A program made the translations under genes and the position numbers. Positions 16,916-34,490 of a stretch of 35,060 nt of DNA are shown here, one piece after another. Below the pieces are notes generated by a model that saw only the letters and a program-made list of their open reading frames with translations, was not told where the DNA came from and made no database searches. This DNA comes from Balneolaceae bacterium (GTDB taxonomy: Bacteria; Bacteroidota; Rhodothermia; Balneolales; Balneolaceae): positions 1-35,060 of the forward strand of contig SKKO01000136.1 of NCBI GenBank assembly GCA_007123715.1. Direction: 5' to 3'. Positions within the stretch are counted from its first letter, which is position 1. Every line of letters starts with the position of its first letter.

Positions 16916-18007
16916 CTATCTTCCAAAAACAGTTTCGATAACATCACCCACAGGCCTGTTATTTTCATATTCAAGGCCAAGTAACCGTGCTACCGTTTTG
17001 GCAACCTGTTTCTGATAAAGATGCATTTCCTCTTTCACAATACCCGTTGCCGGTGTATCGGGGCCTATCACGGCAATCCACATTTCCTCTGAACCTTCAA
17101 CCCGGGATCCATGATGCCGCCACTCATCTACAGGATCGGTACCGCGGCCATGATCAGTGGTGATCACGAAAGTAGTTTTATCTTTGTAAACAGGATGTGA
17201 CTGCACCATTTCCCATAGATTGCGAATAAATGAGTCTGTCTGCCGTGCGGAATAGAGATACGCCTGATAATTACCATCGTGACCAAAATCGTCGGTTTCA
17301 CCATAAGCGATGTAAACCAGCTTCGGTTCATGTTTTTTGATATACTCAACTGCGTAGTGATGCGTAAATGCATCCAGCCGCACAGTGCTCCATGGGCTCG
17401 GAATCTGATGGAGCAATTCATTTAAAAAGATTTCACGATCAGTGAGGCCGTCCCCTTCCGCAGGATCAAAACCGGCGTTTACCGGGATTCCGCTTCGTTC
17501 AGTATTGATGATATACGGAAAAACGTCCCATGAACCAAAAGCGGCTACTCTACCTTCGTATCCGGATTGATTATTCACAAATTCAAGAACAGTGGTGTTT
17601 GGATTCATAATTTTGGCATTACTGTTGATTTCTTCATCCACATAACCCACCAGCAGTTCACTGTATCCCGGATAGGAAAAGTTCCTCCCGTTTGCCACAT
17701 CCACATAATTGCCGTACGTGCGGTTTCCGTAAAGCTGGCCGTTTTCAGCAATCACACTCCAAAAAAATGGCAGCAGCAGCTTTTTCCTTACTTCGGGGTT
17801 CTCATCCCAAAATGTTTCGATGAGAGCTTCTGGATTTCGAACATAATCTTCATGTGAAATCAGTTTTTCATCTGCACCTGTGTAGAGTTCCTGCCAGCGC
17901 AGCCCGTCTAACGAGATTAAAAATACACGTTCAGTTCTATTTGAGTTTTGTGCAAATAGCTGTGTTCCCAAGATGAGAATGAACAGGGTTAGCAGTATTT
18001 TTTTCAT
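16916..18007 (-). CDS. Exported alkaline-phosphatase-superfamily hydrolase (phosphodiesterase/sulfatase-like)
   Basis: A 363-residue protein with a clear signal peptide (MKKILLTLFILILGTQLFAQ, cut after FA). It has the two-zinc core of the alkaline phosphatase superfamily, nearest to nucleotide pyrophosphatase/phosphodiesterase and phosphoglyceromutase-like members. Putative metal ligands are Asp34 (ISLDGLRW), Asp239/240 and His243 (GETDDFGHDG), Asp285-His286 (TTDHGRGT) and His299 (RHHGS). The nucleophile position is Ser111 in NFSYPGYSE. A phosphodiester, phosphomonoester or sulfate ester could be the substrate. It is the last gene of the accessory block on this strand, 136 bases after a second enzyme of the same superfamily; the two are too different to be recent duplicates. 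Upstream (18008-18143) there is an imperfect inverted repeat around 18067-18112. Confidence 0.85.
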   Translation of the reverse strand: MKKILLTLFILILGTQLFAQNSNRTERVFLISLDGLRWQELYTGADEKLISHEDYVRNPEALIETFWDENPEVRKKLLLPFFWSVIAENGQLYGNRTYGNYVDVANGRNFSYPGYSELLVGYVDEEINSNAKIMNPNTTVLEFVNNQSGYEGRVAAFGSWDVFPYIINTERSGIPVNAGFDPAEGDGLTDREIFLNELLHQIPSPWSTVRLDAFTHHYAVEYIKKHEPKLVYIAYGETDDFGHDGNYQAYLYSARQTDSFIRNLWEMVQSHPVYKDKTTFVITTDHGRGTDPVDEWRHHGSRVEGSEEMWIAVIGPDTPATGIVKEEMHLYQKQVAKTVARLLGLEYENNRPVGDVIETVFGR

Positions 18008-18143
18008 GATACGAATTATTGGTTGGCTTGATGTTTATTTGTGAAAATTTTATTCAATCTATTTAGGGTGCCTGCAGCTCTGTATCATGCACCGGCAGTA
18101 CAGCCTGCACCTTAACCATTCAAATTAAGCAGGTCTTTTATGT

Positions 18144-19118
18144 TTAGTAAGCCCTGCTGAAAGCGTGCCTTACAGGCCTTGCAATCCATGCATCGGGCTG
18201 TTGAAGCCCGAATATGTATGCAATAGTCGCAGCCGTATCATATGTGTTTATAAATGGCCCCAGGTCTTTATCCGCTGCAACCCCTGCACCATATATGATC
18301 CATGGGATCAAAATCTCTTCATCTGTTGCCCCTCCATGGCCTGTACCAATACCACCGTGATCGGAAGAAATCATGACAATAGTACGGTTTTTAATGCCAC
18401 TCTGTTCAATCGCAATTAGTGCAGTCCCAATCAGACTATCCGCATGCTGAACAGAGTTGTAGTATTCCACAGAACCATGCGAAAACCGGTGCCCGAAATG
18501 ATCCACATGATCGAGCTGGATAAATAGAAAATTAGGGCGCTCGGCCCGGATATGCTCATTGGCTGCACGTATGGTGTCTTCAGCCCACAATACACGATCT
18601 TCTGTTGTTTCACGGGGAAGATCGGGCATATAAACTGCATCCACAAAATCGTGCTCGAACAACCTGCCAAACCCCGGCCAGTCATAATACGATGCCAGTT
18701 TAAGCTCAGGTCTCTGGCTTTTCATGATGTAGAAGATGGTCGGGAAAAATCCGCCTGGCCCGGCAGCGGTTGGAGTTACCTGATAGTCATCCTGCTCCCA
18801 GCTGTTCGAAGTCACACCGTGCTGCTCAGGGCCGGCTCCCATAATCATCGAAGCCCAATTCGGACTACTATTGGTCGGCATAACTGCCCGCGCGGCTAGT
18901 GTATAGGCACCATTCTGCATCAGGTAATCGATATTCGGGGTATGGGCATTCCGGATTCCGTCAGGACTGAGCGCATCCACCCCGATAAATATCACATGGT
19001 CAACCCCTGCAACTCCATCATGTTGATGGATGTTTTGATCTACTGTATATGATACTGCCCATTGGCCGGCGGCTATGATAAAAATGGTAAAGAGTATTCG
19101 TTGAACCGGTTTTTCCAT
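18144..19118 (-). CDS. Exported type I phosphodiesterase/nucleotide pyrophosphatase-like protein
   Basis: A 324-residue protein with an N-terminal hydrophobic segment (ILFTIFIIAAGQWAVSY) that acts as signal peptide or anchor. The fold is the phosphodiesterase branch of the alkaline phosphatase superfamily. Asp48 lies in FIGVDALS. The nucleophile is probably Ser84 in TNSSPNWASMIMG, where the eukaryotic NPP enzymes have Thr in TFPN. Further ligands are Asp203 and His207 in QLDHVDHFGH, Asp253-His254 in SSDHGG, and His261 in GTGHGG. The HTPNIDYLM segment is typical. It would cleave phosphodiesters or pyrophosphates in the periplasm. The upstream GDPD gene ends 80 bases before its start, on the same strand. 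Confidence 0.85.
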   Translation of the reverse strand: MEKPVQRILFTIFIIAAGQWAVSYTVDQNIHQHDGVAGVDHVIFIGVDALSPDGIRNAHTPNIDYLMQNGAYTLAARAVMPTNSSPNWASMIMGAGPEQHGVTSNSWEQDDYQVTPTAAGPGGFFPTIFYIMKSQRPELKLASYYDWPGFGRLFEHDFVDAVYMPDLPRETTEDRVLWAEDTIRAANEHIRAERPNFLFIQLDHVDHFGHRFSHGSVEYYNSVQHADSLIGTALIAIEQSGIKNRTIVMISSDHGGIGTGHGGATDEEILIPWIIYGAGVAADKDLGPFINTYDTAATIAYIFGLQQPDAWIARPVRHAFSRAY

Positions 19119-19198
19119 TGGAATTTATTTTCGCAGTATGTGGATGTAGTGTTGTAAGAAAAAAATATTGCCATGAATGAGGAAGTTTAACCGGGTGA

Positions 19199-20008
19199 TT
19201 ACTTAAAAAGAGGTTCATAAACCGAATCGATCTGGTAATAACGCACACCAAGGCCGAGCAGCCTGTTCACATCCCGTTTGGCCCCTTCCCATGTATCTTC
19301 TCCGGCCTGTACATACCTGAATTCATTTACAGCAGCTACCACAACTACATTGAGCTCCCCTGCTTTCTGAACCATCTCTTCAGTTAACTGGCTTGCAAGC
19401 ATAAAAAGATGGTACCTGCTGCTCACATCCTCACCTGCATCTTCAGCTTCCAACAAACCATTAAAGCCGATTGAATGTGAAGTTCGATCATGAAAATACT
19501 CTTTTGCCTGCGCACTGCTAAGGATAAATGTGGTTTCCAGAAGTCGATTATCAATAAGAGCCTTTTCAATTTCCCTGTAAAATCTTTCCGAGAGATCATT
19601 CCCTTTTACATCGAGCATCAGCCTTATCCGCCCCGCTGCCAGCGCAGCGGCTTCGGAGAACAGGATTGGCCTTTCTCCGTCAATTTCCGATGAAAGTTCC
19701 TGGATTTCATCCCAATTCACTTCTTCCACCCGTCGCGGATCGTTATAGAACCGCCGGAAATCAGCATCATGGTGAAGAATTGCCCTGCCATCCCTGGTTT
19801 CGCGTATATCTACTTCAATCATCCAATATCCGCGTTCTATTGCAGAGAGAATAGCCGCGCGTGAGTTTTCGGCATGGTTTTCATCCACAACTCCGCCGCG
19901 GTGTGCGATTACGTATACTTCCGTTTCCTGTGCCTGCTGTCCCTTCACCAAAACAGGCTGAAGGAACAGGTTCATTGTAAATATCAGGCAAAAGATTACT
20001 TTTATCAT
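19199..20008 (-). CDS. Exported glycerophosphodiester phosphodiesterase
   Basis: Hydrolyses glycerophosphodiesters to glycerol 3-phosphate and an alcohol. The 269 residues (ATG at 20008, preferred to the TTG one codon earlier) begin with a signal peptide (MIKVIFCLIFTMNLFLQPVL). The GDPD TIM-barrel signature is complete: VIAHRGG (catalytic His36, Arg37), AENSRAA with Glu47, MIEVDIRETRDG with Glu65 and Asp67 as metal ligands, and ILHHD with His79/His80. The C-terminal half (LGLGVRYYQIDSVYEPL) is typical of family members whose last strand ends in D. It lies 15 bases after the aldehyde dehydrogenase gene, so it is in the same operon. Together with the adjacent phosphodiesterase-like genes it points to breakdown of phospholipid headgroups or similar phosphodiesters. 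Confidence 0.93.
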   Translation of the reverse strand: MIKVIFCLIFTMNLFLQPVLVKGQQAQETEVYVIAHRGGVVDENHAENSRAAILSAIERGYWMIEVDIRETRDGRAILHHDADFRRFYNDPRRVEEVNWDEIQELSSEIDGERPILFSEAAALAAGRIRLMLDVKGNDLSERFYREIEKALIDNRLLETTFILSSAQAKEYFHDRTSHSIGFNGLLEAEDAGEDVSSRYHLFMLASQLTEEMVQKAGELNVVVVAAVNEFRYVQAGEDTWEGAKRDVNRLLGLGVRYYQIDSVYEPLFK

Positions 20009-20023
20009 CAATATATGAAGGAT

Positions 20024-21502
20024 CTAAAATTTGCGGTCCCAGTCACGAATCCAGCGTTCCACAATCACTTTGGTTTGTGTATAGAACTCTACGGCGTGAT
20101 GGCCCTGGGCGTGCAGGTCGCCGAAGAAACTCTCCTTCCAGCCGCTGAACGGGAAATAAGCCATTGGTGCTGCCACCCCGATGTTAATGCCGATATTTCC
20201 TGCTTTGGCCTCGTAACGGAACTGTCTCGCTGCCGCTCCACTGCTTGTAAAGAGGCATGCCATGTTCCCATATACCTGGCTGTTTATCAGTTCAATTGCT
20301 TCATCAACCGTATCTACGTGCATCAGGCCAAACAGCGGCCCAAATATTTCGGTTTTGGCAATGGAGCTGCCTGGGGCAATATCATCCATAATGGTTGGAA
20401 ATGCCCAAAAACCACCATCGTACGATTCCACATTTTTTCCGCGACCATCCACAAGGATACGCCCGCCTTCTTTGGCTCCGGTTTCCACAAATTCATATAC
20501 CCTTTCCCTGCTTTGAGGTGAAATGACCGGTCCCATTTCGGTATCATCATTGAGGCCATAACCAACTTTAAGTCCGGCTGCCTTCTCTGAAATTGCTTTT
20601 GTGAAAGGTTCTCTCGCGCTTCCCACTGTAATGGCAAGTGAGTTTGCAAGACAACGCTGCCCGGCACATCCAAATGCTGAATCTCCCACAATTCGGGTGG
20701 TCATATCCATATCGGCATCAGGTAGTACAATAACCATATTTTTTGCCCCGCCCTGTGCCTGCACACGTTTGCCATTAGCTGATGCCGTGGCATAAATATA
20801 TTTCGCTACCGGTGTGGAGCCCACAAAACTCACCGCTCTAACCGCCGGATGCTCCAGCAGAACATCCACAGCTGTTTTATCGCCGTTCACAAGCTGCACC
20901 ACGCCCGGAGGAAGATCAAGCTGATCCAGTAATTCGAAAATCTTGGTGGTAGCCATCGGAACCTTCTCACTCGGTTTTAAAATAAAACAATTACCTGCTG
21001 CCAAAGCATATGGCAGGAACCATAGCGGAATCATCGCCGGAAAATTAAACGGGGTTATAGCTGTCACCACGCCAAGTGGCTGCCGTATCATGTGCTCATC
21101 AACGCCTGTGGCAATATCTTCATTATTCGTGCCTTGCATCAGCATGGGCATTCCACAGGAATTTTCAACGTTCTCAATACCCCGTCTGATTTCCCCAATG
21201 CTTTCTTTGTAGGTTTTACCGCATTCGTTTGTGATTATTTTGGCAAGTTCATCGGCGTGTTCTTCAAGCAGGTTTTTGAATTGGAACATATACTGAATAC
21301 GCTTGGTTACTGGAACCCGGCGCCATCCATCAAATGCCTTATCTGCTGCAAGTATGCATTCTTCCACTTCCTGTTTTGAAGAAATGGGTACTTTTGCGAT
21401 TGCTAAACCGGTAGCCGGGTTTATCACTTCCCCTGCATGGCCAGACTCCGAATCTCTCCAACGGCCGTTTATGTAATTTTTAAGCTGATTTACTGAATTC
21501 AT
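20024..21502 (-). CDS. mmsA: CoA-acylating (methyl)malonate-semialdehyde dehydrogenase
   Basis: Cytoplasmic aldehyde dehydrogenase that converts methylmalonate semialdehyde or malonate semialdehyde with CoA and NAD+ to propionyl- or acetyl-CoA and CO2. The 492 residues show the family N-terminus ([12 protein letters not shown]), [22 protein letters not shown], the catalytic Cys284 in GCAGQRCLA, and GGAKN in place of the general-base Glu motif of ordinary aldehyde dehydrogenases, which marks the MMSDH/IolA group. Arg107 and Arg283 match the conserved arginines that bind the substrate carboxylate. Valine, thymine, beta-alanine and myo-inositol degradation all pass through this step. It is the only clearly cytoplasmic catabolic enzyme of the accessory block; 15 bases separate it from the GDPD gene, which fits myo-inositol or a related substrate but does not prove it. 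Confidence 0.93.
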
Positions 21503-21608
21503 TCGATTTTGGTTTAATGATTACTGATTGATCCTGTTCTACCGTAGCTGAGTTAGATAATAGCATGAATTAAGAAAACGATTTCATACTTGGAAAATAA
21601 CAATTTAA

Positions 21609-22463
21609 TCAAAGTAATTCTCTGATCCTGATATTTTTCCAGTATACTTTTTTCCCTTCTGCCCACCATGTACTTCCGCCATGAACCTGCAGACCAATAT
21701 GACCCTCATCGCCTAATTGCTCATAAACCCGTTCTTTATCAAAACGCGGATGGATATTTGCAGCGGCATCGAATTTCCCGATCATCACTCCATTAATCCA
21801 GGTTGTGATGATGGGATATTTACCTTCACAGCGTATACGCAGTTCGTTATAGTCATTTAATTTCCACGCCGTACGCCACTCTTCTTTCGTACATGCATAA
21901 CGGTCAGGATTTTCATCAAGGTCCGGATAGAGGTCAAACGACCTCATTTCGAGATCAACAAGGTTTCCTTCAGCATCAAATACGCCAAAATGCCTGAACG
22001 GTTCGGTTCGCCAGGCTCCCGTCCCCTGTCCGTACAAAAAACCGGAGATGCCGCCATTGTTCGGCTCATCGTGATAATCCACATAGACCTGGTAGGAATC
22101 GCCATTGTGTAACGAGCGCAGAAATACCCCGGAGTCACATCCCCACTCCGGTTTCACATCCATAATAAGCTCAAAATCGCTGTATGTTTTGTCAGTAAGA
22201 AGTACACCGCCATTTCCCGAACCAGGCGGATCCTGTTCACAAACAATCGCCCCGTTTTCAACTTTCCAGCTCGCGCCGTTAATATGCCATCCATCCAGAT
22301 TTCTGCCATTAAAAATGGAAACAAATTCTTCATCGCAGGGTGTTTTAAACGCAGAATCTTTTTTACCGAAGGATGCTAACCCGAGAGCCGAAGTCGTACC
22401 AAGGCCTGCGGTAAGAGCGGTTGTAGATTTTAAAAATTGGCGGCGGTTGATCTGTTTTTTCAT
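21609..22463 (-). CDS. DUF1080 (3-keto-disaccharide hydrolase family) protein with Tat-like signal
   Basis: A 284-residue protein. The N-terminus has a twin-arginine signal (Arg7-Arg8 in NRRQFLKS followed by the hydrophobic TALTAGLGTTSALGLA), so it is probably exported folded. The rest is one DUF1080 jelly-roll domain (about 45-282): FVSIFNGRNLDGWHINGASW, GGVLLTDKTYSDFELIMDVKP, then a long loop and the closing KKVYWKNIRIREL. Some family members hydrolyse 3-keto-glycosides after periplasmic oxidation of the sugar; others are only carbohydrate-binding. The presence of a sugar-type quinoprotein dehydrogenase in the same block makes an oxidise-then-cleave route worth considering. It lies 39 bases after the EEP gene and 106 bases before mmsA. 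Confidence 0.88.
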   Translation of the reverse strand: MKKQINRRQFLKSTTALTAGLGTTSALGLASFGKKDSAFKTPCDEEFVSIFNGRNLDGWHINGASWKVENGAIVCEQDPPGSGNGGVLLTDKTYSDFELIMDVKPEWGCDSGVFLRSLHNGDSYQVYVDYHDEPNNGGISGFLYGQGTGAWRTEPFRHFGVFDAEGNLVDLEMRSFDLYPDLDENPDRYACTKEEWRTAWKLNDYNELRIRCEGKYPIITTWINGVMIGKFDAAANIHPRFDKERVYEQLGDEGHIGLQVHGGSTWWAEGKKVYWKNIRIRELL

Positions 22464-22502
22464 CGGGTCAGGGATTTGGTTGGTTTTGATTGCATCTTGG
22501 TG

Positions 22503-23417
22503 TTATTTGTTAAATTCTATATCAGCCACAACCGGAAGATGATCGGAGGGGAAATGGCCGTCACGAATATCCGCGAGAATACCATGCTGAATAACTGAAA
22601 ATTTGGGGTTGACAAATATATAATCAATCCGCCGTTCGGGAATGATTTCCCGGAATCCATTCCATGTGGTTGTCGGGCCATGATGGCCATAACGAGAGTG
22701 ATAAAAGCCATCGAACAGCTCTACCCTTACGGGCCCAAGGGCCGGATCGGTAAGAATTTTATACGGATCCTGGCTCTCCACAGTGTTCAGGTCACCCATC
22801 ACAATCACAGGATCACCTTCGGATAGTTCAGCCACTTTCTGAAGAATCAGTTCCGAACTTTTACTGCGTGCCTCCTCCCCGCGATGGTCATAATGAGTAT
22901 TGAAAACGATAAAGCGCCGGCTGTTTTTCTTGTCATACAAGCGAGCCCAGGTAGCAATCCTTGTGATAGCTGTATCCCAGCCCATACTGCCTGGAATATC
23001 CGGAGTTTCAGATAGCCAGAAAGTCCCGTCTTCAATAAGGTCAAAACGGTCAGTTTTATAATAGATGGCACAAAACTCACCGCCTTCCCTGCCGTCATCG
23101 CGCCCTATACCCACCCATCCGTATTCCGGAAGCAATTCTTCCAAATCCCTGACCTGGCTTATTAACCCTTCCTGGATGCCCACAATATCATTTTTATGGA
23201 AACGGAACATGCCGGCGACAAAATCCTTTCGATACGGCCAGGCATCCGGCCCATCGTTTGGATTGTCAAAACGAATATTAAATGACATTACACGGAAAGA
23301 TTCACTCATCTCTGAGGAACCATATAGATTTCGATCACCATCTACACAAGCGGCGAAAGAAATAAGAATAATAATCATGCTTAAAAAAATAATGGCGTAT
23401 TGCATTGTAGTGAACAT
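22503..23417 (-). CDS. Endonuclease/exonuclease/phosphatase-family lipoprotein
   Basis: A 304-residue lipoprotein: hydrophobic h-region and a lipobox FAAC with Cys24. The mature part is a complete EEP-fold metal-dependent phosphoesterase: MSFNIRFDN (Asn47), IQEG (Glu83), FNTHYDHRG (His175, Asp177, His178), MGDLNT (Asp209, Asn211), RRIDYIF (Asp265) and SDHLPV (Asp292, His293). Surface or periplasmic members of this fold include DNases, sphingomyelinases, inositol-phosphate phosphatases and other phosphodiesterases; the sequence alone does not decide. The GWDTAITRIATWARL segment is common in the sugar-phosphate/lipid-type bacterial group rather than in nucleases, as far as I can judge. It starts 18 bases after the CRTAC1-like gene and is in the same operon. 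Confidence 0.9.
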   Translation of the reverse strand: MFTTMQYAIIFLSMIIILISFAACVDGDRNLYGSSEMSESFRVMSFNIRFDNPNDGPDAWPYRKDFVAGMFRFHKNDIVGIQEGLISQVRDLEELLPEYGWVGIGRDDGREGGEFCAIYYKTDRFDLIEDGTFWLSETPDIPGSMGWDTAITRIATWARLYDKKNSRRFIVFNTHYDHRGEEARSKSSELILQKVAELSEGDPVIVMGDLNTVESQDPYKILTDPALGPVRVELFDGFYHSRYGHHGPTTTWNGFREIIPERRIDYIFVNPKFSVIQHGILADIRDGHFPSDHLPVVADIEFNK

Positions 23418-23435
23418 AACTTTTTTAATTTGTAA

Positions 23436-26400
23436 TTATGGTGAAACCGTCCTCGTGACTCCTTGTATGTTATAGAACGTAATTTCCCGCATCTTCCCGG
23501 TCAGGTAAACCGATCTCGCAGATTGGGATAAATAACCCGATCCGTGATAAAATTCCACTTTTTCCTTACTTCCGTCTTGAAAACTGATAATTGCTGAAAT
23601 TTCATTTTCTTCTGCCCTTAACCGTTTTGCCTCTTGTGGGTTTGTGATTTTAAACAGTTCAGCCCGGCCATCATTTCGTGCTGCGAGTACAAGCTTTTCA
23701 CCGTCAGCCCCCCCAAGGGTAACCAGAGACTTTCCATCCTTATCCAGATAGAAGCCAGTCTCTGCATATTGAATCGCCTTGAAATTGCCGTTACCGTCAC
23801 CCATCAAAACGAGACCGCTAAATGCATCATACCTCCCTGTAAATACATCGGTTGAATAGGAGTTTCCCGAGAGAAGAATATCTGTGTTACCATCACCGTC
23901 AAAATCAGCTGTCATTATTCCGAAAACCGGAGCAAACTGTGCCTCAACAGGTAACGGTTTTACTTCAAAACCGTTACCGTTTCGGTTTTGAATAAGGCTG
24001 GACTGAAATGTGTGTATACTGTAACTCTCTGCCTCATTCATTTGCCGGGAAGACAGAATATCATTTAGTTTTGCGTCACCATAAGAAGAATAGGTCGGAA
24101 ACCGCCGGGCCATTTCAGGAATCTGCAATACAAGATCATCCCTCAGGTGTACCAGATAGCGTTCACCGTGAACAACCCGGCTTATGAGGGGATCTGTAAT
24201 TCCATTCCCGTTAAAATCACCAATATGCATCATTACAGGGCCATTCTCTCTGTTCCTGAGCAGGGAATTTAGGCCGAGATTTCCGGCAACATAATCCGTG
24301 AATCCATCCTGATTAAAGTCAGCCGCCGTAATACTGTTCCACCATCCCACTGTTTCTGCCAGGCCAAGGTCTGCCGTCACATTTACAAGACTTCCATTAC
24401 GGTTTTCAAAAACGGTGACCGGCATCCATTCACCAACAAGTATGAGGTCTTTCCAGCCGTTGTTGTTGTAATCGGACCAGATTGCCGATGTAACCATCCC
24501 AATATTTTTAAGCCCGGGAGCCACCTCTTCTGTGATATCTTTGTACCTCCCCCCTGCATACTTCAGGATAAAAATTTCCGGTTTTTTAGGGTAGTGATTT
24601 GGCACTACCCTGCTGCCCACAAAAAGTTCAAGACTGCCATCCTGATCTATGTCGGCAGCCACCACTACGGAACTGCTCCCCCTGATATCGGGCAAGGCGT
24701 CGGATATATGTGTAAACTTTCCGGTTCCATCGCCAAAATAGAGTCGGTCTCTGTAATATTGTGAACCCGGGGCAAATTCGCTGCCTCCACTGGCTACGTA
24801 AAGATCAAGGTGACCATTTCCATTTGCGTCGAAGAGAAGGGCCCCTGTATCTTTTTCGTATGCAGAACCGGGATCCAGGTCGTGGCCTGTAAAGGTGCCA
24901 TCCATATTTTGCAGAAACACCCGGCCCGATTGCCCGAAACCACCACCTATAAAAAAGTCGTCCAGTCCGTTTTTATTCATATCACCCACAGCAATTCCCG
25001 GGCCGGTTCTTGAAAATTTATGAGGTAACAACGGCTGTATGTTGAAATCAATGAAATTTTCTTCAGTATGAATAAAATCCATTTGTGCAGATTCGGTAAT
25101 ATTTTTAAAAATCTGTGACATTTCCGTGGAAGGTGGCTCATACTTTACCGGAATAAGCGGCTGCTCCCCATATACAACCTCTGCAATACTGTTCACCGGT
25201 AAAGCAGTGATTACCTGCTTTTGGTCATCTGGCCAGATTACCACAAGTGAGTCGATTTCAGTTGCTTTACCCAGCCCGAAATGAACGGGTGTTGCCATTG
25301 CGGAAAGATATCCCCTTGATACGGAATACTGATGGTGGAGGCTTTCATCATCAAAATAAAGCGATAATTTTGCACCAATACCCTGACGGTTATTTTCCGG
25401 TCCGGATATCTTTATTTGAAGAAAATGATTCTCATGCTGAGACCGGTTGCTGTAAATAAACACTTCCTGGTTTATATTGTTAATAACCAGGTCTAGTTGC
25501 CCGTCATTATTCAAATCCGCAAATGCCGCCCCGTTTGAATAGGATGGTTCACGAAATCCCCATTCTGAAGAAACATTACTGAACGTAAGGTCACCGTTAT
25601 TCCTAAAAAGATAATTTTTCTCAAATACTCCATCCAGATGTTGCAATTCATCATAAAGCCTTTCCATCATACTGCGGTCAAAAACACCACTTCGCAGGAT
25701 ATCCATTTTAATCTTTGAAAAATCATTGTCGGCGGGATTACGCGGAAGGCCGTTTGTGATCATCAGGTCGAGCCGGCCATTGTTATCCAAATCTGCGAAA
25801 AGGGCCGACCAGCTCCAGTCTGTACTTTCCACGCCTGCTAACGGGGCAATATCCGCAAATACAGGATGTCCATATGGAGTCTGTCCGCTGTTTAGTTGCA
25901 GCACATTTCGTTTTACCTGCGGTTCATAACCCATCACCTGTTGCGACAAGTAGCGCTCATAACCGGCTGATTCGTACATCTGTTTGAGCCTCTTGTTCGA
26001 TTCCGGCAGCATATCAACGGTAATGATGTCCATGAGCCCGTTATTATTCATATCACCGAAATCTGTCCCCATGGATGCATAGCTTTGATGACGAAAGTAA
26101 CCTGCCGCACGGTTGGTAAAGGTACCGTCGCCATTATTGATATAGACAAGGTCGTTCGGCAAAAAATCATTGGCTACATGTATATCCGGCCACCCGTTCC
26201 CATTGATGTCGAATACATTAATGCCCAGCCCGTAACCCTCAATTAAAATGCCCGATTCCGCTGAGACATCCGTAAAAGTACCGTCCCCGTTATTCCGGTA
26301 TAATTTATCTGTGTTAATGTGTTCACCATTCAGGAGTTTTGGCTTAATCACATTTGGTGGCACATCACCATGACCGTTATTGAGCACATAAAGATCAAGA

Positions 26401-26990
26401 AATCCATCTTTATTGTAATCAAAAAATACAGCCTGGGTAGAAATCCCGGTATTGGCAATCCCGTACTCCAGGGCTCTTTCGGTGAAAGTTCCATTTCCGT
26501 TATTGATATAGAGTTCATTTGCCCGACGGGCAGGATCGGCGTATGGCCCGCCAAAACTGATGTAAATATCCAGCAATCCGTTATTGTTGATGTCAACAAG
26601 CGTTACCCCGCTTGCCCATTTTCCTTCTGTATGGATACCGGATTGGCTGGTAATGTCGGTAAATCTAAAATCACCTTCATTTTTATAGAGCCGGCTTTCA
26701 CCCATATTTGAAGCTAAAAAAATATCATTATATCCGTTATTGGTTATATCGCCGATGGCGACACCCGCTCCGTTATAAAGCATTTCAAACGTTACAATAT
26801 TCAGATCCACACTCTCGTCAACGCGGTTTACGAAAGAGATTCCGGTTTCAGAAGAATGAAGCAATTCAAACATCTCTGAAGGAATATTTATTTCGCTTTT
26901 ACAGCCTGCGAACATAAAAAAAACAATCACGATGAATACTCGTGAGGGTTGTATTGGAAGCTGAAATTTAACAGGAAATTGTGCTGACAT
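23436..26990 (-). CDS. Giant CRTAC1-like lipoprotein with FG-GAP/VCBS repeats and ASPIC/UnbV domain
   Basis: An 1184-residue surface lipoprotein (lipobox FAGC, Cys30). Two blocks of FG-GAP/VCBS beta-propeller repeats (about 60-510 and 640-1100) flank an ASPIC/UnbV domain at about 520-610 (GIGAKLSLYF, RGYLSAMATPVHFGLG, VIWPD). Many repeats carry a calcium-loop pattern D-x-N-x-N-G-x-x-D, for example ADLDNNGRLDLMITNG and GDMNKNGLDDFFIGGG. The fold is known from CRTAC1-family and UnbV-type proteins, which often accompany SusC/SusD genes in marine Bacteroidetes and relatives; their function is not settled, and calcium-dependent glycan or matrix binding is the usual suggestion. It lies 126 bases after the quinoprotein gene and 18 bases before the EEP gene. 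Confidence 0.92.
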   Translation of the reverse strand: MSAQFPVKFQLPIQPSRVFIVIVFFMFAGCKSEINIPSEMFELLHSSETGISFVNRVDESVDLNIVTFEMLYNGAGVAIGDITNNGYNDIFLASNMGESRLYKNEGDFRFTDITSQSGIHTEGKWASGVTLVDINNNGLLDIYISFGGPYADPARRANELYINNGNGTFTERALEYGIANTGISTQAVFFDYNKDGFLDLYVLNNGHGDVPPNVIKPKLLNGEHINTDKLYRNNGDGTFTDVSAESGILIEGYGLGINVFDINGNGWPDIHVANDFLPNDLVYINNGDGTFTNRAAGYFRHQSYASMGTDFGDMNNNGLMDIITVDMLPESNKRLKQMYESAGYERYLSQQVMGYEPQVKRNVLQLNSGQTPYGHPVFADIAPLAGVESTDWSWSALFADLDNNGRLDLMITNGLPRNPADNDFSKIKMDILRSGVFDRSMMERLYDELQHLDGVFEKNYLFRNNGDLTFSNVSSEWGFREPSYSNGAAFADLNNDGQLDLVINNINQEVFIYSNRSQHENHFLQIKISGPENNRQGIGAKLSLYFDDESLHHQYSVSRGYLSAMATPVHFGLGKATEIDSLVVIWPDDQKQVITALPVNSIAEVVYGEQPLIPVKYEPPSTEMSQIFKNITESAQMDFIHTEENFIDFNIQPLLPHKFSRTGPGIAVGDMNKNGLDDFFIGGGFGQSGRVFLQNMDGTFTGHDLDPGSAYEKDTGALLFDANGNGHLDLYVASGGSEFAPGSQYYRDRLYFGDGTGKFTHISDALPDIRGSSSVVVAADIDQDGSLELFVGSRVVPNHYPKKPEIFILKYAGGRYKDITEEVAPGLKNIGMVTSAIWSDYNNNGWKDLILVGEWMPVTVFENRNGSLVNVTADLGLAETVGWWNSITAADFNQDGFTDYVAGNLGLNSLLRNRENGPVMMHIGDFNGNGITDPLISRVVHGERYLVHLRDDLVLQIPEMARRFPTYSSYGDAKLNDILSSRQMNEAESYSIHTFQSSLIQNRNGNGFEVKPLPVEAQFAPVFGIMTADFDGDGNTDILLSGNSYSTDVFTGRYDAFSGLVLMGDGNGNFKAIQYAETGFYLDKDGKSLVTLGGADGEKLVLAARNDGRAELFKITNPQEAKRLRAEENEISAIISFQDGSKEKVEFYHGSGYLSQSARSVYLTGKMREITFYNIQGVTRTVSP

Positions 26991-27116: not shown

Positions 27117-29273
27117 CTAATTACCCGGAAGTGCAAAAACCACAAATGAATCGCCGGGTTCGGTAACCAGTTTACGATGGCCTTGTCCACAGTAAAGGCA
27201 ATTACCTCCCACGCCGATTACTACATATTGTTTACCGTTAATCTCGTATGTGCTTGGTGTGGCAAATGCACCGGTTTCCAGTTCGGTTTCCCATAAAATT
27301 TCTCCGGTATCTTTGTCAAAGGCCCGAAACATCCTGTCGCGGGTGGCAGCGATAAAAATCAATCCACCCGCCGTCACCACGGGTCCGCCCAGGTTTTGTG
27401 TGCCAGTTGGCGGGATTCCCCGTTCAGTAAGCTGTTTAAATTCCCCGAGCGGAACTTGCCATAAGATTTCACCCTTGTTCAGGTCGATGGCATTTAATGT
27501 GCCCCATGGCGGCTTAATGGCTGGAAATCCTTCCTCATCGCGGAACTGATAATAACTTCTGTGTACATATGGCGGAATATTGGCCGTTTGTGCGTCAACT
27601 TCAGCATTTTCTTTCGTTTCGATATCATATAGAAATGAGATGATTGCACTTACTTCATTATTATTAAGAGAAAGCGGAGCCATGGCACCGCGCCCTTCCA
27701 CTATAACGGATGCAGCTTCATCTGTAGAAATATTCTCCCCGATATTCAGCAACTCCGGAAAAGGAGGCACACCTTCCCGGTCAAATCCATGGCAAACGGC
27801 ACAATGGGCCGTATAAAGCTGTTCACCGAATGAAAGCATTCCAAGTTGCAGGCTTTCGGTCTCTACCATTGGCATCACGTAGGGAATATTATTGGCATTC
27901 ACGTACATGATTCCACTTGACGGGTCGTGAGCGGCACCACCCCACCATGCCCCGCCATGCAGGCCAGGCATGATGATTGTACCAGGACTTGTACTGGGAG
28001 GGTCATAAATTCCCCTGGAGCTGTATTTTCGGAATTGCTCCCGTGCCCAGGCATTTTTTTCGGGCGAAAGATCTGTAAGATCATCCTCAGTTAAACCATG
28101 CATGGAAAAAGGCTCCGGCTTTACAGGGAACGGCTGGGTAGGCCATGTTTGCTCTCCCAACAATGTGGATGGCGGCACCGGCCTGTTTTCAATCGGGAAG
28201 AGTGATTCACCTGTATCGCGGTTCAAAACAAATACCATTCCGGTTTTTGTCACCTGGGCTACAGCGTCAATAAATTGACCATCGTGATAAACTGTCAAAA
28301 GATTTGGTGGCGTAGACAGGTCATAATCCCAAATATCATGGTGAGTCGTCTGGAAATACCAGATCAATTCGCCAGATGTGGCATTTAAAGCTACAATTGC
28401 ATTTCCATAAAGATTTTTGCCAATACGGTCGCCTCCATAAAAATCGTAGGAAGGAGAGCCTAAAGGCACATAAACTACACCCCGTTCATCATCCAGGCTC
28501 ATGCCGCCCCAGTTATTTGCTCCGCCAAGTTTTTCCCAGGAATCTCCCGGCCACGTATCATAGCCATACTCGCCCGGATGGGGAATCGAATGAAATATCC
28601 ACTTTATCTCACCCGTTCTTACGTCGAATGCCCTGACATGCCCTGGGGTATGGCGTTGCGGGCCTTCGGGCACCCTGCCTCCAATGATGTATAAATCATT
28701 GTAAATAATTCCGGGAGAGGTTGGACTGATTGAGAGCTCTTCAGCCGGTTCACGGTTAAGGCCTTCTCGCAGATCAATCCTGCCATCTTCGCCAAAATCT
28801 ATAAGAGGTTTACCGGTGTTTGCATCAAGTGCATAGAGAAAAAATCCCCTTGTAAAGAAAATACTTTCTTCATTTCCGTCAGTCCAGTAGGTCACACCAC
28901 GATTAGCATGGCTCGGCCCACCGGCATCGAACGTCCAAAGCTCCTCACCAGTTTCAGCATTAAGAGCAATAATCTTTAGAGCTGGCGAGCTGATGTACAT
29001 CCTGTTACCGATTATAACCGGGTTTGCCTGTATGGTTGAACGGTCTGATTTATCACCTGTTCGGTAAACCCATGCCACTTCAAGATTCTGAACATTGGAT
29101 TTGTTGATTTGCTGAAGAGAGGAATACTGGCTATTCGCATTATCCCCGCCAGCAACAGTCCATGAAATATAATGATCGGGATTATATGGAAAGGTTTTAT
29201 CCTTTTTTGATTCCCCGCATGCTTGTATTAGACCTGCAAAGAGCAATAGTATGACAAACTTTTTTGTATACAT
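27117..29273 (-). CDS. Quinoprotein (PQQ-dependent) dehydrogenase with inserted cytochrome c domain, lipoprotein
   Basis: A periplasmic PQQ-type dehydrogenase of 718 residues from the ATG at 29273. An upstream start (29351) would add 26 residues before the lipoprotein signal MYTKKFVILLLFAGLIQAC, so I reject it. The eight-bladed propeller shows LNAETGEELWTFDAGG, GGANNWGGMSLDDERG, YDFYGGDRIG and FQTTHHDIWDYDL, which place it near the membrane glucose/quinate dehydrogenase group. A class I cytochrome c domain with CAVCH (Cys491, Cys494, His495) is inserted before the last blades, whereas most quinohaemoproteins carry it at the C-terminus. It would pass electrons from a sugar, polyol or alcohol to the respiratory chain. 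No PQQ biosynthesis genes are present. A terminator separates it from susD, and the CRTAC1-like gene follows after 126 bases. Confidence 0.92.
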   Translation of the reverse strand: MYTKKFVILLLFAGLIQACGESKKDKTFPYNPDHYISWTVAGGDNANSQYSSLQQINKSNVQNLEVAWVYRTGDKSDRSTIQANPVIIGNRMYISSPALKIIALNAETGEELWTFDAGGPSHANRGVTYWTDGNEESIFFTRGFFLYALDANTGKPLIDFGEDGRIDLREGLNREPAEELSISPTSPGIIYNDLYIIGGRVPEGPQRHTPGHVRAFDVRTGEIKWIFHSIPHPGEYGYDTWPGDSWEKLGGANNWGGMSLDDERGVVYVPLGSPSYDFYGGDRIGKNLYGNAIVALNATSGELIWYFQTTHHDIWDYDLSTPPNLLTVYHDGQFIDAVAQVTKTGMVFVLNRDTGESLFPIENRPVPPSTLLGEQTWPTQPFPVKPEPFSMHGLTEDDLTDLSPEKNAWAREQFRKYSSRGIYDPPSTSPGTIIMPGLHGGAWWGGAAHDPSSGIMYVNANNIPYVMPMVETESLQLGMLSFGEQLYTAHCAVCHGFDREGVPPFPELLNIGENISTDEAASVIVEGRGAMAPLSLNNNEVSAIISFLYDIETKENAEVDAQTANIPPYVHRSYYQFRDEEGFPAIKPPWGTLNAIDLNKGEILWQVPLGEFKQLTERGIPPTGTQNLGGPVVTAGGLIFIAATRDRMFRAFDKDTGEILWETELETGAFATPSTYEINGKQYVVIGVGGNCLYCGQGHRKLVTEPGDSFVVFALPGN

Positions 29274-29443
29274 CCAAAAATTATTAGTTATGATAGATTT
29301 TAATCCGGATACATCTGCAATGAGGATGAACGGAATTGCAGGCAGATTCAACCGTTACATTACAAATAGGACAAATGGGATACCTTTTACCCTTACCTTG
29401 AAATAAATACATTTCATTATTACGGGTATGGCATCAATTATAT

Positions 29444-29495: not shown

Positions 29496-29517
29496 GATGT
29501 TATTATGGAACAATTAG

Positions 29518-30996
29518 TTAGTGACCGGGATTTTGTTCAAGTACCCCGCCACTGATATCTATCTGGTTTTGCGGAATGGCGTAGTAATAATGTTTTGGGC
29601 GCACAAAATTACGTGTCGGATCGAACGGGCCTCTGTCTTCGCCATAAATAGCCACAATATCTACGATATTCGCTTTATCCCAGCGCATCAGGTCGAAATG
29701 GCGTTTGTTTTCGCCAGCAAGTTCTACGCGCCTTTCATGGATGATATGCTGCATAGTGGCATTTGTTACCGGTGCGAGACCGCTGCGTTGCCGAACAGCA
29801 TTAAGCTCTGTGTCACCATTTTGGCCAAGGCGGATTTTTGCTTCAGCCACATACAGATACGCTTCTGCAGATCTCATTAATGGTATATTGCTATCACCAT
29901 CAAGACCACCTGCTGAACGCCACTGAGAAAATTTTTGAAAATGATATCCGGTTGTGGGCGACAAATCTGCAGAGTAAACCGTTTCCCCCCTGTCTCCGCC
30001 TAAATCATAAACATCACCCGGTCTCATAATTGAATACCCTTGCCTTGGGTCGTCATCTTCGTATTCTTCAAGAAGGTTGGGTAACGGTGCATGAAAATCC
30101 CAGCCGCCCCATGGCCTTGGTGAACTGTATATACGATGTGCAGGTGCACTCCATCCCTGAGCTCCGGCAACCGTAAACAGGATTTCCGGATTGTATTGAG
30201 TCTCAATTTTAAAGTTCTGATCAAATACAGGTGCCAGCGGATAGGGGCCGCTGATAACCTGATTCCCAGAGGAAATAGCGTCCTGGAACCGCTCCTGGAA
30301 CATATATAACTTGGTGAGATAAGCCCATGCCGATCCTTTGTTCGGCCGCCCAACACTATTCCCTGAGTGAGTGAGTGGTAACAAATCAGCAGCTTGTATC
30401 AGATCTGATTCAATTTGCGACTGTGTCTGTTCCAATGTTGCGCGTGGCTTATTGAAATCATTGTCAATCACATTCTGCTCAAGAATGAGAGGCATGCCAC
30501 CAAATAGTTTTGACAAATACCAGTATGTAAAGCCACGCATAAAGTAAGCTTCACCAAGAATACGGTTCTTGAGCCCCTGGTCCATATTTATATTGGGAAC
30601 ATTGATTATAATGTCGTTCGAACGGTTGATGATTTCATACATCCTCCTCCATGTACTTTCAAAGTAGGGGTGAGAGGAGTCGTAAGTAAAGTTTTCGATA
30701 TCTGAATGCACTCCATGGTCGCCTGCACGGTATTGATCATCCTCAGGGATGCCCATCAGCGTATTAATGCGATGGCCCCACAAGTCATGATTGCCTAATG
30801 GCTCATATATCGCATTTACCGCTGCTTCAGCATCATCGGAATTTCTCCAGAAGTCTTCTGTAGTTGTTTGGCCGTATGGCGGTACATCCAGAATACCTTC
30901 ATCACAACCGTACATAAAGGAAAATAAACCGGGAATCAGGAACATTAAAAATAACGCTCCCCAATTCATTTTGATTGATGTTGTTTTTGGTTTCAT
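29518..30996 (-). CDS. SusD/RagB-family outer-membrane nutrient-binding lipoprotein
   Basis: Surface lipoprotein that forms the lid on a SusC-type channel and captures the substrate. The 492 residues from ATG 30996 begin with a lipoprotein signal ending in FMYGC (Cys31); AGGA 4 bases upstream and the normal signal peptide decide this start over ATG 31035 or TTG 31050. Typical SusD features are the N-terminal VPPYGQTTTEDFWRNSDDAE, TPR-like helices (GEAYFMRGFTYWYLSKLFGG, then GSAWAYLTKLYMFQERFQDA), and the C-terminal LMRSAEAYLYVAEAKIRLGQ, RRVELAGENKRHFDLMRW and YAIPQNQIDI. It lies 50 bases after susC. The ligand cannot be read from sequence; the downstream enzymes suggest a phosphodiester or oxidisable sugar compound. 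Confidence 0.96.
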   Translation of the reverse strand: MKPKTTSIKMNWGALFLMFLIPGLFSFMYGCDEGILDVPPYGQTTTEDFWRNSDDAEAAVNAIYEPLGNHDLWGHRINTLMGIPEDDQYRAGDHGVHSDIENFTYDSSHPYFESTWRRMYEIINRSNDIIINVPNINMDQGLKNRILGEAYFMRGFTYWYLSKLFGGMPLILEQNVIDNDFNKPRATLEQTQSQIESDLIQAADLLPLTHSGNSVGRPNKGSAWAYLTKLYMFQERFQDAISSGNQVISGPYPLAPVFDQNFKIETQYNPEILFTVAGAQGWSAPAHRIYSSPRPWGGWDFHAPLPNLLEEYEDDDPRQGYSIMRPGDVYDLGGDRGETVYSADLSPTTGYHFQKFSQWRSAGGLDGDSNIPLMRSAEAYLYVAEAKIRLGQNGDTELNAVRQRSGLAPVTNATMQHIIHERRVELAGENKRHFDLMRWDKANIVDIVAIYGEDRGPFDPTRNFVRPKHYYYAIPQNQIDISGGVLEQNPGH

Positions 30997-31046
30997 TTTG
31001 TCCTGTAATTTCTTGGGTGTTTGAGTTTTAAACATTTGCGGGATTA

Positions 31047-34000
31047 TCAAAAATCAATGACTGTTCCGAATGTCCACGTTCTTGGCTGCGGATATTGCGC
31101 ATAGTCAACATTTCGCTGCAGGTTACCGTCTGTATAGCCAAGTTCGGGGTCAATTCCCGAGTAGGGTGTGATGGTAAATACATTGATTCCGGTTACATAG
31201 AAGCGAACCCCTCTCAGGCCTGCAATTTCCGTAATACTGTTTGGAAGTGTATAACCAAGAGTAAAGGATTTGAGCCTGAAATAACTTCCACTTTCAATGA
31301 AAAGGTCGGATGCCCTGTGGTTCAGGTTATTTCGAAGTGTGGTCATCCTCGGAATGGTATTACTTGAACCCTGGCCATTCCACCTGTTTTCTGTTTCAGC
31401 ATACATGTTGAATGGATATGTAGGATCAATCCCCTGCATCCGGTCAGCATTAAAAATATCAACCCCGGCTGCTCCAACAAAATGGAGATTCAGGTTTAAG
31501 TTTTTGTACCCTGAAGAAACACTCAGTCCATAAGTCATATCCGGATGCGGGCTGCCAAGAATTTTCCGGTCATCAGCGTTGATAACTCCGTCACCGTTCA
31601 GGTCAACAAATCTCACATCTCCAGGCCTGATATTGGCTCTTCTTGGGTCATTGGAAATATTCGGATCGCTATCAATTTCCTGCTGATTTTGGTAAAGGCC
31701 ATTTGTTGACCAGCCATAAAATGTTGCAATCGGGTGTCCCTGGAAAGTTCGTGCAATTTCCTGATTCGGCCGTCCGTAAGTTACAGATCCAAGAAAATCA
31801 TTATTCAGGTTAGTTACCTCGTTCCTGATAAATGATGCATTTCCGGAGACTGAAAAGTTAATCTCGCCAACCTGGCCGGAATATCCCAATTCAATTTCCA
31901 GCCCCTGGTTCCGAATTTCACCAACATTCACATCCGGTACCGAAGCTGTTCCGAGAACTGCAAGAATAGGAGGTGCAAGCAGTACATCTTTCGAATCACG
32001 AATAAAGTATTCCACCGATGCATTTATCCTGTCATTATACATACGTGTATGCACACCGAAGTTGATCATCTCAACCGATTCCCAGGAGATATTTCTGTTA
32101 GGTATCCTGGTTTGGCTTATGCCATTCACCTGTGCACCCTGGAAACTGTATCGCGCGTTTTGAGCATACAATCCCAAAAACTGGTGCCTTGCAATAGACT
32201 GGTTGCCTGATCGACCCCATCCGGCAGTTAATCTCATGTTGTTTATGACCGGCCTGAGATTATCAAAAAAGCTCTCCTCAGAAATACGCCATCCAGCTGA
32301 TACTGCCGGAAACACACCCCATCGGTTATTGGATGAAAATCTTGATGAGCCATCATAACGAATACTTGCAGATAACAAATACTTGTTGGCAAGGGCATAA
32401 TTCACACGGCCAAGATAGGATAAAAGGGCATCTTCGATGGTTGTACCGGATGCTCCAGCTATAATATTTCCAGAATTGAGGACACGCTGTGTGGGTGACT
32501 CATCTTTAAAATCTCTTCTTAACGCAGAGAAATTTTCACCTTTAAATGTTTCCTGAACGATACCCGCCAGACCGTCAATGTCATGATTTTGAGCAATAGT
32601 GCGCCTGAAATGGAGAAACAATTCAGAAGAAACGGAGGTACCCTCAGTGTAAGATCGGTTTAACTCGTTTTGAGGACGCGCTCTTATTTGACGGTCAATG
32701 ACAGGAAAAAATTGATAAAAATCATCAATCGCATAATCCAACCCAACGCTTCCCCTTAATGATAAACCTTCAAACAGGTCAATTTCACCTTCAACATTTC
32801 CAAGAACCCTTCTTCTTTCCGTGTTTGAATCTGAATCCTGCTCTATTGTAAAGATGGGATTGTTTATATCGCCAAACTCACCGCTGATTTGAGAGGAACC
32901 ATACGAACCATCTTCGTTTTGAACAGGAAGACCTGGATGAAACCGAATGGCACTCCACAAAACACCTGTTTGTGCCGATAATGTATTTAATGTATTGCCA
33001 TTTGTACGCGTTAATGAAAGGTTTTGGCGAAGGTTAATACGACTGCCTACGCGGTGGAATGAATTAATTTTCAAACCATAACGGTCAAAGTATGATGATT
33101 TCATCATTCCCTGCTCATCGGCAAAGTTACCGGAAATGTAAAATGAAGAATTGCTCGAACCTCCCTGGATCGAAAGATTATAATCCTGTATTGATCCTGT
33201 ACCAAGAAGTTCGTCCTGCCAGTTTGTTCGTTGTGTTTGATATGTCTGATCTTCCCAAATCGGATTTACCGGCAGCCCATCGTTGGTAAATCGCTCGCGT
33301 TTCAGCATTGCCAGTGTTGGTGCATCCAGTACATCAATTGTATTTATCGGGCGTGAATAACCAATGGATGAATTAAAACGAACCTGCAAATCCTGATTAA
33401 ATCGACCCCGTTTTGTTGTTACAAGAATTACACCATTTGCTGCTCGGTTTCCATAGACAGCGGCTGAGGAGGCATCTTTCAGAATATCAATAGACTCCAC
33501 ATCGTCTGAATTGATGTTATTCAGACTTTGCAAATCCGATGGCATCCCATCGATTACAATGAGAGGATTGGCATCATTTACAGTTCCTGTACCCCGGATG
33601 CGGATAGCCCCTCCGGTTCCCGGTGCTCCGCCACCCCGTACAATTTCAACTCCGGATGCCTGCCCCTGTAATACCGTTGAAAGATTGGTAATAGGTTGAT
33701 TATCGAGCTGTTCGGAACGTATGGACGCTATTGAGCCTGTAATTCTTTCCTGGCGCTGCATACCGTAACCAACCACAACAATATCGTCCAGCATCTCCAA
33801 AGCCCTTTCAAGGGTTACATTAATTTGTGTGGCCGAACCAATTTCAACCGTTTTTGTAATGTATCCTACTGAAGTAATTACAAGCGCATTCAGCCCTTCA
33901 GGAACATTGATTTCAAATTCACCACTCGTATTTGAGTTTGTCCCAATCAGCGACCCTGTAAGTTCTCTGCTGCCTTGCACTACAATGGTTGCTCCGGGCA

Positions 34001-34490
34001 CAGGTGTGCCATCAACTGCATCTCTGATTACACCGATTACTGTTTCCATGAGAATTGCTTCAATTTCTTCTCCATCTTTTTGGATGATAAGAAGATAACC
34101 TTCACGGGAAATCCGAAAATCAAGCCCTGTGTCACTTAGAATTTTATCAAGTGCATCACTGATCCAGATTCCTTCCTCAATAACGGTAACGTTTACATCG
34201 GGAAGAATATCACCACGCAGTGTGAGTTTCATACCGGTCTTTTCAGCTACAGTTCGAAGAGCTGTCATTAAAGGCGCATTATTGATATTCAGGTTAATTT
34301 CTTCCTTTATATCTGTTTTGTAGAACATCTTTTGCATCGCCGTTATGTTTGCAAAATATTGTTCCTGATTTGTCAAAGCCGGCTGTAGTTGAAATGACGC
34401 AAATGCTTTATTTTTTTCAGCACCTGCAATCATTATCACAGCTGAAAGCATTATGAGCTTTATGAGATATCTAAATTTTTGTTTTCTCAT
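31047..34490 (-). CDS. SusC/RagA-family TonB-dependent receptor with STN domain
   Basis: Outer-membrane importer driven by TonB, partner of the SusD protein. The 1147 residues have a signal peptide (about 1-31), an STN (secretin/TonB N-terminal) domain at about 64-138 (LNINNAPLMTALRTVAEKTG), a CarboxypepD_reg-like domain at about 152-228 (VIGVIRDAVDGTPVPGATIV), a TonB plug at about 245-355 (ERITGSIASI, LQGQASGVEIVRGGGAPGTG) and a 22-strand beta-barrel ending in aromatic VIDF. The STN domain marks receptors that signal through a FecR-type anti-sigma factor to an ECF sigma factor. Those partners usually lie upstream of susC, which here would be beyond the right edge. The immediate 570 bases upstream hold none. 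ATG start is unambiguous. Confidence 0.97.
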   Translation of the reverse strand: MRKQKFRYLIKLIMLSAVIMIAGAEKNKAFASFQLQPALTNQEQYFANITAMQKMFYKTDIKEEINLNINNAPLMTALRTVAEKTGMKLTLRGDILPDVNVTVIEEGIWISDALDKILSDTGLDFRISREGYLLIIQKDGEEIEAILMETVIGVIRDAVDGTPVPGATIVVQGSRELTGSLIGTNSNTSGEFEINVPEGLNALVITSVGYITKTVEIGSATQINVTLERALEMLDDIVVVGYGMQRQERITGSIASIRSEQLDNQPITNLSTVLQGQASGVEIVRGGGAPGTGGAIRIRGTGTVNDANPLIVIDGMPSDLQSLNNINSDDVESIDILKDASSAAVYGNRAANGVILVTTKRGRFNQDLQVRFNSSIGYSRPINTIDVLDAPTLAMLKRERFTNDGLPVNPIWEDQTYQTQRTNWQDELLGTGSIQDYNLSIQGGSSNSSFYISGNFADEQGMMKSSYFDRYGLKINSFHRVGSRINLRQNLSLTRTNGNTLNTLSAQTGVLWSAIRFHPGLPVQNEDGSYGSSQISGEFGDINNPIFTIEQDSDSNTERRRVLGNVEGEIDLFEGLSLRGSVGLDYAIDDFYQFFPVIDRQIRARPQNELNRSYTEGTSVSSELFLHFRRTIAQNHDIDGLAGIVQETFKGENFSALRRDFKDESPTQRVLNSGNIIAGASGTTIEDALLSYLGRVNYALANKYLLSASIRYDGSSRFSSNNRWGVFPAVSAGWRISEESFFDNLRPVINNMRLTAGWGRSGNQSIARHQFLGLYAQNARYSFQGAQVNGISQTRIPNRNISWESVEMINFGVHTRMYNDRINASVEYFIRDSKDVLLAPPILAVLGTASVPDVNVGEIRNQGLEIELGYSGQVGEINFSVSGNASFIRNEVTNLNNDFLGSVTYGRPNQEIARTFQGHPIATFYGWSTNGLYQNQQEIDSDPNISNDPRRANIRPGDVRFVDLNGDGVINADDRKILGSPHPDMTYGLSVSSGYKNLNLNLHFVGAAGVDIFNADRMQGIDPTYPFNMYAETENRWNGQGSSNTIPRMTTLRNNLNHRASDLFIESGSYFRLKSFTLGYTLPNSITEIAGLRGVRFYVTGINVFTITPYSGIDPELGYTDGNLQRNVDYAQYPQPRTWTFGTVIDF

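Follow-up and report, generated by a model that had tools for sequence, protein, structure and literature searches.

A SusC/SusD-linked phosphoesterase block in a Balneolaceae genome as a candidate exported arm of inositol catabolism

The ten-gene block described here is probably the exported arm of a myo-inositol regulon, and it would feed on inositol phosphodiesters such as the headgroups of phosphatidylinositol. Glycans are the familiar substrates of SusCD systems, and organic phosphate has been added more recently. The present block suggests inositol lipids as a food for these bacteria, beyond a phosphate source alone. The window, that is the whole stretch of 35,060 nucleotides that was analysed, comes from a 3.9-Mb draft genome (G000, called the own genome below) whose close relatives are named Balneolaceae. 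The starting points can be read in the DNA directly. They are the genes and their conservation, the adjacency to iol genes, the lack of mmsA in the iol operon of the own genome, and the shared operator-like sites.

Gene content and conservation of the block

The sequence-only reading had placed ten genes of named families on one strand. This was confirmed by the coordinates (10/10 genes on the minus strand, 16916-34490) and by domain assignments from Pfam and NCBIfam. The genes and one predicted regulatory site are as follows.

31047..34490, minus strand: SusC-like TonB-dependent transporter, 1147 aa (Plug, TonB barrel, CarbopepD_reg_2 and a weak STN in Pfam)
29518..31050, minus strand: SusD-like surface lipoprotein (SusD_RagB 6.6e-31, SusD-like_3)
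27117..29351, minus strand: PQQ dehydrogenase with an inserted cytochrome c domain, probable lipoprotein (PQQ 1.9e-199, 664.7 bits; Cytochrome_CBB3 at residues 509-574)
23436..26990, minus strand: CRTAC1-like lipoprotein (8 FG-GAP_3 stretches and UnbV_ASPIC)
22503..23417, minus strand: EEP lipoprotein of a sugar-phosphatase-like subfamily (Exo_endo_phos in Pfam)
21609..22463, minus strand: DUF1080 / 3-keto-glycoside eliminase-hydratase-like protein with a twin-arginine signal (3keto-disac_hyd PF06439, 7.9e-31)
21572..21587, no strand assigned: predicted operator of the iol LacI regulator, AAGAAAACGATTTCAT, 78 bp upstream of mmsA
20024..21502, minus strand: MmsA/IolA, CoA-acylating (methyl)malonate-semialdehyde dehydrogenase (TIGR01722, 572.7 bits against a cut-off of 448.5)
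19199..20011, minus strand: exported GDPD-family phosphodiesterase (GDPD in Pfam; nearest solved relative 3i10)
18144..19118, minus strand: AP1, exported NPP-type alkaline-phosphatase-superfamily enzyme (Phosphodiest 9e-31; NPP structures)
16916..18007, minus strand: AP2, exported alkaline-phosphatase-superfamily enzyme (Pfam; metal-site motifs kept in 10 homologues)

The spacing between neighbouring genes ranges from -4 to 166 bp, and SusC and SusD are adjacent with a 4 bp overlap. Read by eye, the N-termini of SusD, PQQ, CRTAC1 and EEP are of the lipoprotein type and those of the remaining genes except MmsA are of the Sec/Tat type. This agrees with the earlier remark that most N-termini are of an exported type, and MmsA alone among the ten proteins looks cytosolic. 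For SusD and PQQ, the TTG listed as start codon probably lies too far upstream; an internal Met followed by a lipobox is the likelier start. No glycoside hydrolase or polysaccharide lyase family was found by Pfam among the ten genes, in agreement with the earlier reading, and the DUF1080 protein is the sole carbohydrate-active-type protein. The SusCD pair stands beside exported phosphomono- and phosphodiesterases (GDPD, AP1, AP2 and EEP), which is the PUS-type arrangement. The left part of the window (371-16792) carries mostly housekeeping genes (SerRS, RpoN, DprA, Obg, carboxyltransferase, TsaB, amidohydrolase and a Cys/Met PLP enzyme) and also two Lrp-type regulators.

The core of the block, PQQ-CRTAC1-EEP-DUF1080-MmsA-GDPD, is kept whole or in part in six Balneolaceae genomes and at more than one chromosomal site. 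A chance block had been expected to show SusCD and the phosphoesterase genes separated and never co-occurring in relatives. The recurrence of the core in six genomes at different sites rules out such a chance neighbourhood. Orthologues of the PQQ enzyme with 65-89% identity are present in G061, G065, G067 and G068, with a fragment in G047, and no other PQQ homologue exceeds about 55%. The full gene order from SusC to AP2 is found in G061, where it extends on to the adjoining genes for Lrp, amidohydrolase and DUF3857. Partial gene order is kept in G047, G065, G067 and G068. SusC is 86% identical in G061 and 67% in G065. The identity of SusD in relatives is 65-88%, and the SusD query against genome contigs found two relatives only. 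The block or a variant of it adjoins amidohydrolase-DUF3857-TsaB in G000, G061, G047 and G063, but in G065 these three genes lie about 155 kb from the block, which is missing beside them. Therefore, the genes of the block stay together after relocation.

The attachment of SusCD is variable, as G067 has the PQQ-to-AP2 genes with a different SusCD. AP1, AP2, EEP or CRTAC1 is missing from the cluster in some relatives; CRTAC1 is missing from the G067 island, and AP2 of G065 sits on a separate contig. In G047 (contig C432, positions 1-300 of the locus read there) the tail of the PQQ gene is 99% identical to the window and the adjoining CRTAC1 is 77% identical. This jump is read as recent recombination or an assembly chimera. 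A variant locus without a PQQ orthologue occupies the same chromosomal slot in G063 (C97:75000-109762). It contains MFS, EEP, ECF, FecR and another SusCD. These are joined by two DUF1080 proteins, a protein with a cupredoxin domain, ThuA, an Nramp-like protein, MmsA, AP1, AP2 and a GMC-like oxidoreductase.

Connection with the iol genes

The sequence-only reading had guessed at an inositol substrate. The guess is strongly supported by the iol adjacency, by the own iol operon without mmsA, by a shared operator-like site and by co-occurrence with PI-PLC and iolD. In G065, an SDR gene, iolB, iolC, a Cgl0159-like aldolase gene, iolD and an MFS transporter gene lie between SusD and PQQ. For iolG and iolE, contigs C3 and C7-C10 of G065 were searched, and neither gene has a close match in them or on the 746-kb cluster contig. 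In G067, one contig of 41,411 bases brings together the PQQ-to-AP2 genes, the iol pathway, a PI-phospholipase C, LacI and a SusCD pair other than that of the block. The order begins with a metallophosphoesterase, a PI-PLC-C1 protein, DUF1080b, EEPb, GDPDb, MFS, PQQ, EEP, DUF1080, MmsA, GDPD and AP2. After AP2 come an SSS symporter, iolG, iolB, iolC, the aldolase, iolD and a sulfatase-like protein, and then a protein without a Pfam match, SusC2, a SusD-like protein, iolE and LacI.

Inside the window, mmsA is the only iol core gene, and the rest are on contig C177 of the own genome; in G065 and G067 iol genes adjoin the core. The C177 operon consists of an ABC transporter, iolG, iolB, iolC, the aldolase and iolD, with iolE and LacI adjoining. 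Curated cut-offs are exceeded by MmsA and by the C177 genes iolD (917 against 715) and iolC (388 against 300), and iolG is also over (358 against 355). IolE scored 210.6, below its cut-off of 290. The assignments of IolB and the aldolase are based on 71% and 61% identity, respectively, to the genes of relatives. No mmsA lies beside this operon on C177, and it is the sole gene missing from the operon. In G048, G066 and G068, mmsA is located between LacI and iolE. The window copy is the only close mmsA in the own genome. Therefore, the window MmsA most likely supplies IolA, the final step that is absent from the own iol operon.

Several iol clusters carry the perfect palindrome ATGAAAACGTTTTCAT in front of iolE or mmsA and in front of LacI. 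At two or fewer mismatches it has 30 intergenic matches and 1 coding match in 528 kb of loci picked for iol and PI-PLC genes, a choice favouring the motif, whereas shuffled palindromes (n=299) gave a mean of 0.11 intergenic matches and a maximum of 3. The predicted operator in the window has two mismatches to the palindrome, a level that chance can reach. It is the sole match in the window at three or fewer mismatches, with 0.62 expected by chance. The slot upstream of mmsA also holds a predicted operator in G061, where the copy is better, and in G047; no iol-type operator was found before mmsA in G065, G067 and G068. Five places in the own genome are within one mismatch of WTGAAAACGWTTTCAW. 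The window site is one of these five, the best matches in the genome, and the others are upstream of the C177 iol operon, at the PI-PLC locus on C138 and at two more places.

The predicted operator covers the mmsA side of the block and not the SusC-PQQ side. Genes for an ECF sigma factor and FecR are located upstream of SusC in G061 and G065, which suggests separate control of the SusC side. Those of the own genome are on C141 and were assigned by synteny across a contig break; MFS, FecR and ECF on G000:C141 (positions 1-4500 of the locus read there) probably continue the right end of the window (35060), by synteny with G061. The block probably comprises at least two regulatory units, the SusC side beside ECF/FecR as in relatives and mmsA-GDPD-AP behind a LacI-type predicted operator. 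A scan for sigma-70 promoters and terminators performed no better than shuffles.

The distribution of the genes across genomes was also compared. Among the 92 family genomes, iolD is present in 12. The following Fisher values ignore shared ancestry and are overstated, most carriers being of one genus: MmsA orthologues (>=60%) occur in 10/92 family genomes, all among the 12 iolD carriers (9e-12); PI-PLC-C1 occurs in 13/92, that is in 10/12 iolD carriers versus 3/80 others (2.4e-9); and DUF1080 orthologues occur in 9/245 class genomes, all of them iolD carriers (iolD 31/245; 2.7e-9). Three of the nine DUF1080 carriers come from another family, and the block neighbours are not kept around the DUF1080 relatives of another family (G159-G161). 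Six iolD carriers are without the PQQ/DUF1080 pair. Therefore, inositol catabolism as such can do without the pair.

The PI-PLC-C1 genes sit in a separate SusCD locus. Besides PI-PLC, this locus has SusD, a SusC with a length of about 1005 aa and often also a protein of 585 aa. In G063 this locus runs directly into the inositol ABC/iol operon. In the own genome the corresponding region (C138:43000-62999) encodes a second SusCD system. Two PI-PLC-C1 genes stand there in tandem, accompanied by four Gfo/Idh-type oxidoreductases, an ApbE-like protein and the first part of a DUF1080 gene, and operator-like sites lie upstream of SusC and of DUF1080.

Proposed pathway and alternative explanations

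The account that follows is our inference for the substrate, for the direction of transport and for all reactions. The Ca2+-dependent PI-phospholipase C of the second locus, assigned by family, would attack inositol lipids together with its own SusCD. The window SusCD would then be the route by which inositol phosphodiesters or phosphates pass the outer membrane. Judging from their families, GDPD and the two AP-superfamily enzymes may cut the phosphodiester and EEP may remove the phosphate. By the same family logic, the PQQ/cytochrome c dehydrogenase would oxidise either the ring or a sugar attached to it; cleavage of the resulting ketone by elimination and hydration would fall to DUF1080. The product would enter through MFS, ABC or SSS transporters and be degraded by IolG, IolE, IolD, IolB, IolC and the Cgl0159-type aldolase. 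The window MmsA, whose place in this scheme follows the gene content and order, would supply the last step missing in the own iol operon.

The enzymes themselves were characterised further. The PQQ enzyme scored 477 bits against TIGR03074 (glucose/quinate/shikimate PQQ family), under the cut-off of 832.65, and so lies outside that family. The PQQ proteins of the locus form one clade with 100/100 support in the tree. No PqqE homologue over the family cut-off was found in 17 genomes; the model gives weak matches in all control genomes, hence the cut-off is decisive. Therefore, PQQ would have to be either imported or made by another route, and import may be the case in these 17 genomes. Several PQQ-type dehydrogenases were observed in the same genomes. 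The nearest solved structures of EEP are 3g6s, 3mpr and 4c1r, the last of which is named mannosyl-6-phosphatase, and its catalytic motifs are kept in the alignment. The subfamily nearest to EEP is that of the Bacteroides mannosyl-6-phosphatases. This makes monoesterase activity more likely than diesterase activity, and EEP may remove phosphate from a sugar phosphate or an inositol phosphate. The sequence-only reading had named EEP among the enzymes that cleave phosphoesters and had phosphodiesterases release the alcohol; for EEP, a diesterase role is made less likely by this closeness. Its account of the locus is supported in part, strongly for the inositol link and less so for EEP as a diesterase. 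The DUF1080 model (pLDDT 66) best matched 4jqt (Z 20.4, 182 aligned, 2.4 A) and also matched 9fbe, a 3-keto-glycoside eliminase/hydratase (Z 17.6, 184 aligned, 3.3 A). PF06439 and this moderate-confidence model place it in the 3-keto-glycoside hydrolase/eliminase fold. The fold search with the AP2 model (pLDDT 65) returned the AP superfamily only, at TM 0.4-0.5, and no subfamily.

Other explanations of the block were weighed against these results. In a more specific form of the inositol explanation, which does not compete with it, a glycosyl-inositol phosphate (PI-mannosides, GIPC or GPI-like lipids) is imported, and PQQ and DUF1080 strip the sugar by a 3-keto route and free the inositol. DUF1080 with a periplasmic dehydrogenase is the pair proposed for 3-ketolactose (PMC9007349), the DUF1080 fold matches the 3-keto-glycoside eliminase/hydratase, and the own PI-PLC locus carries four Gfo/Idh-type oxidoreductases with a second DUF1080. 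However, the window is without a glycosidase, and a PQQ enzyme is present instead of any LacABC- or Gfo/Idh-type 3-dehydrogenase among the window genes scanned. This specific form is considered possible but tentative. We also considered that the first two steps of inositol breakdown might take place in the periplasm. Here, the PQQ enzyme would make keto-inositol or a keto-inositol phosphodiester and DUF1080 would eliminate water or the phosphate group. Phosphoinositides would thereby be opened by oxidation and beta-elimination, not by hydrolysis, and MFS would import the product. The clearest case would be G065, with MFS, iolD, iolB and iolC and no close iolG/iolE on the 746-kb contig. We regard this route as rather improbable.

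It is also unlikely that the block serves phosphate scavenging, as a system like PUSI of Flavobacterium johnsoniae that is expressed on phosphate starvation and yields inositol as a by-product. The phosphoesterases do adjoin SusCD, and PUSI pairs SusCD with PI-PLC-C1 and a metallophosphoesterase (PMC8115612), like the second SusCD locus here. On the other hand, the block shares a LacI-type predicted operator with the iol operon, and iol genes occur within such clusters. Both speak for carbon use, and the co-occurrence with iolD stands against scavenging as well. A general sugar-oxidation PUL, in which PQQ, CRTAC1 and DUF1080 act on an unrelated sugar or polyol, with the phosphoesterases and a relocated mmsA as chance neighbours, would be in line with the roughly 50% identical PQQ paralogues in many other contexts. 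The locus-specific PQQ clade, the DUF1080 orthologues found only with iolD and the cluster kept at different genomic sites make it very unlikely. The exported arm of a myo-inositol regulon is the explanation that we prefer.

Comparison with known systems

In PUSI of F. johnsoniae, PusCD1 stands with PI-PLC-C1 and a metallophosphoesterase under phosphate starvation (PMC8115612). The block resembles it in having SusCD with exported phosphoesterases in place of glycoside hydrolases and a companion locus with PI-PLC-C1 and a metallophosphoesterase. Unlike PUSI, it is tied to iol genes and a LacI-type predicted operator instead of phosphate starvation, and it adds a PQQ dehydrogenase, DUF1080, MmsA and GDPD. 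A survey of iol clusters found them in 3% of Bacteroidetes species, in three families (PMC9430895). Like bacterial iolABCDEG clusters, the own genome has the set of IolG, E, D, B, C, aldolase and MmsA. It differs from the surveyed clusters in the coupling to SusCD, PI-PLC and a periplasmic oxidising arm, with mmsA within the SusCD locus.

The 3-ketoglycoside pathway is known with LacABC and DUF1080 in Caulobacter and with BT2157 of Bacteroides (PMC9007349). The exported DUF1080 beside a periplasmic dehydrogenase is common to both systems, but in the block the dehydrogenase is a PQQ/cytochrome c enzyme and the partners are phosphoesterases and inositol genes. The membrane-bound PQQ inositol dehydrogenase (mIDH) of Gluconobacter oxidises inositol outside the cytoplasm (PMC9171043). 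Among NCBIfam groups, the window enzyme comes nearest to the glucose/quinate-type PQQ family, and the two enzymes are likened at the family level. What sets the window enzyme apart from mIDH is its inserted cytochrome c, its lipoprotein-type N-terminus and its score below the TIGR03074 cut-off.

No paper joining SusCD with inositol catabolism was found in the literature searched, with subscription papers outside its coverage. If the explanation is true, a SusCD system wired into inositol catabolism would make phosphoinositide lipids a carbon diet for Bacteroidota-type bacteria, in which iol clusters are reported to be rare. It also proposes a testable role for the PQQ/DUF1080 pair outside sugar oxidation and provides a predicted operator whose target genes form a defined set. 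Compared with known phosphate utilisation loci, the block is a variant form of the SusCD-type organophosphate locus, apparently one built around inositol as carbon.
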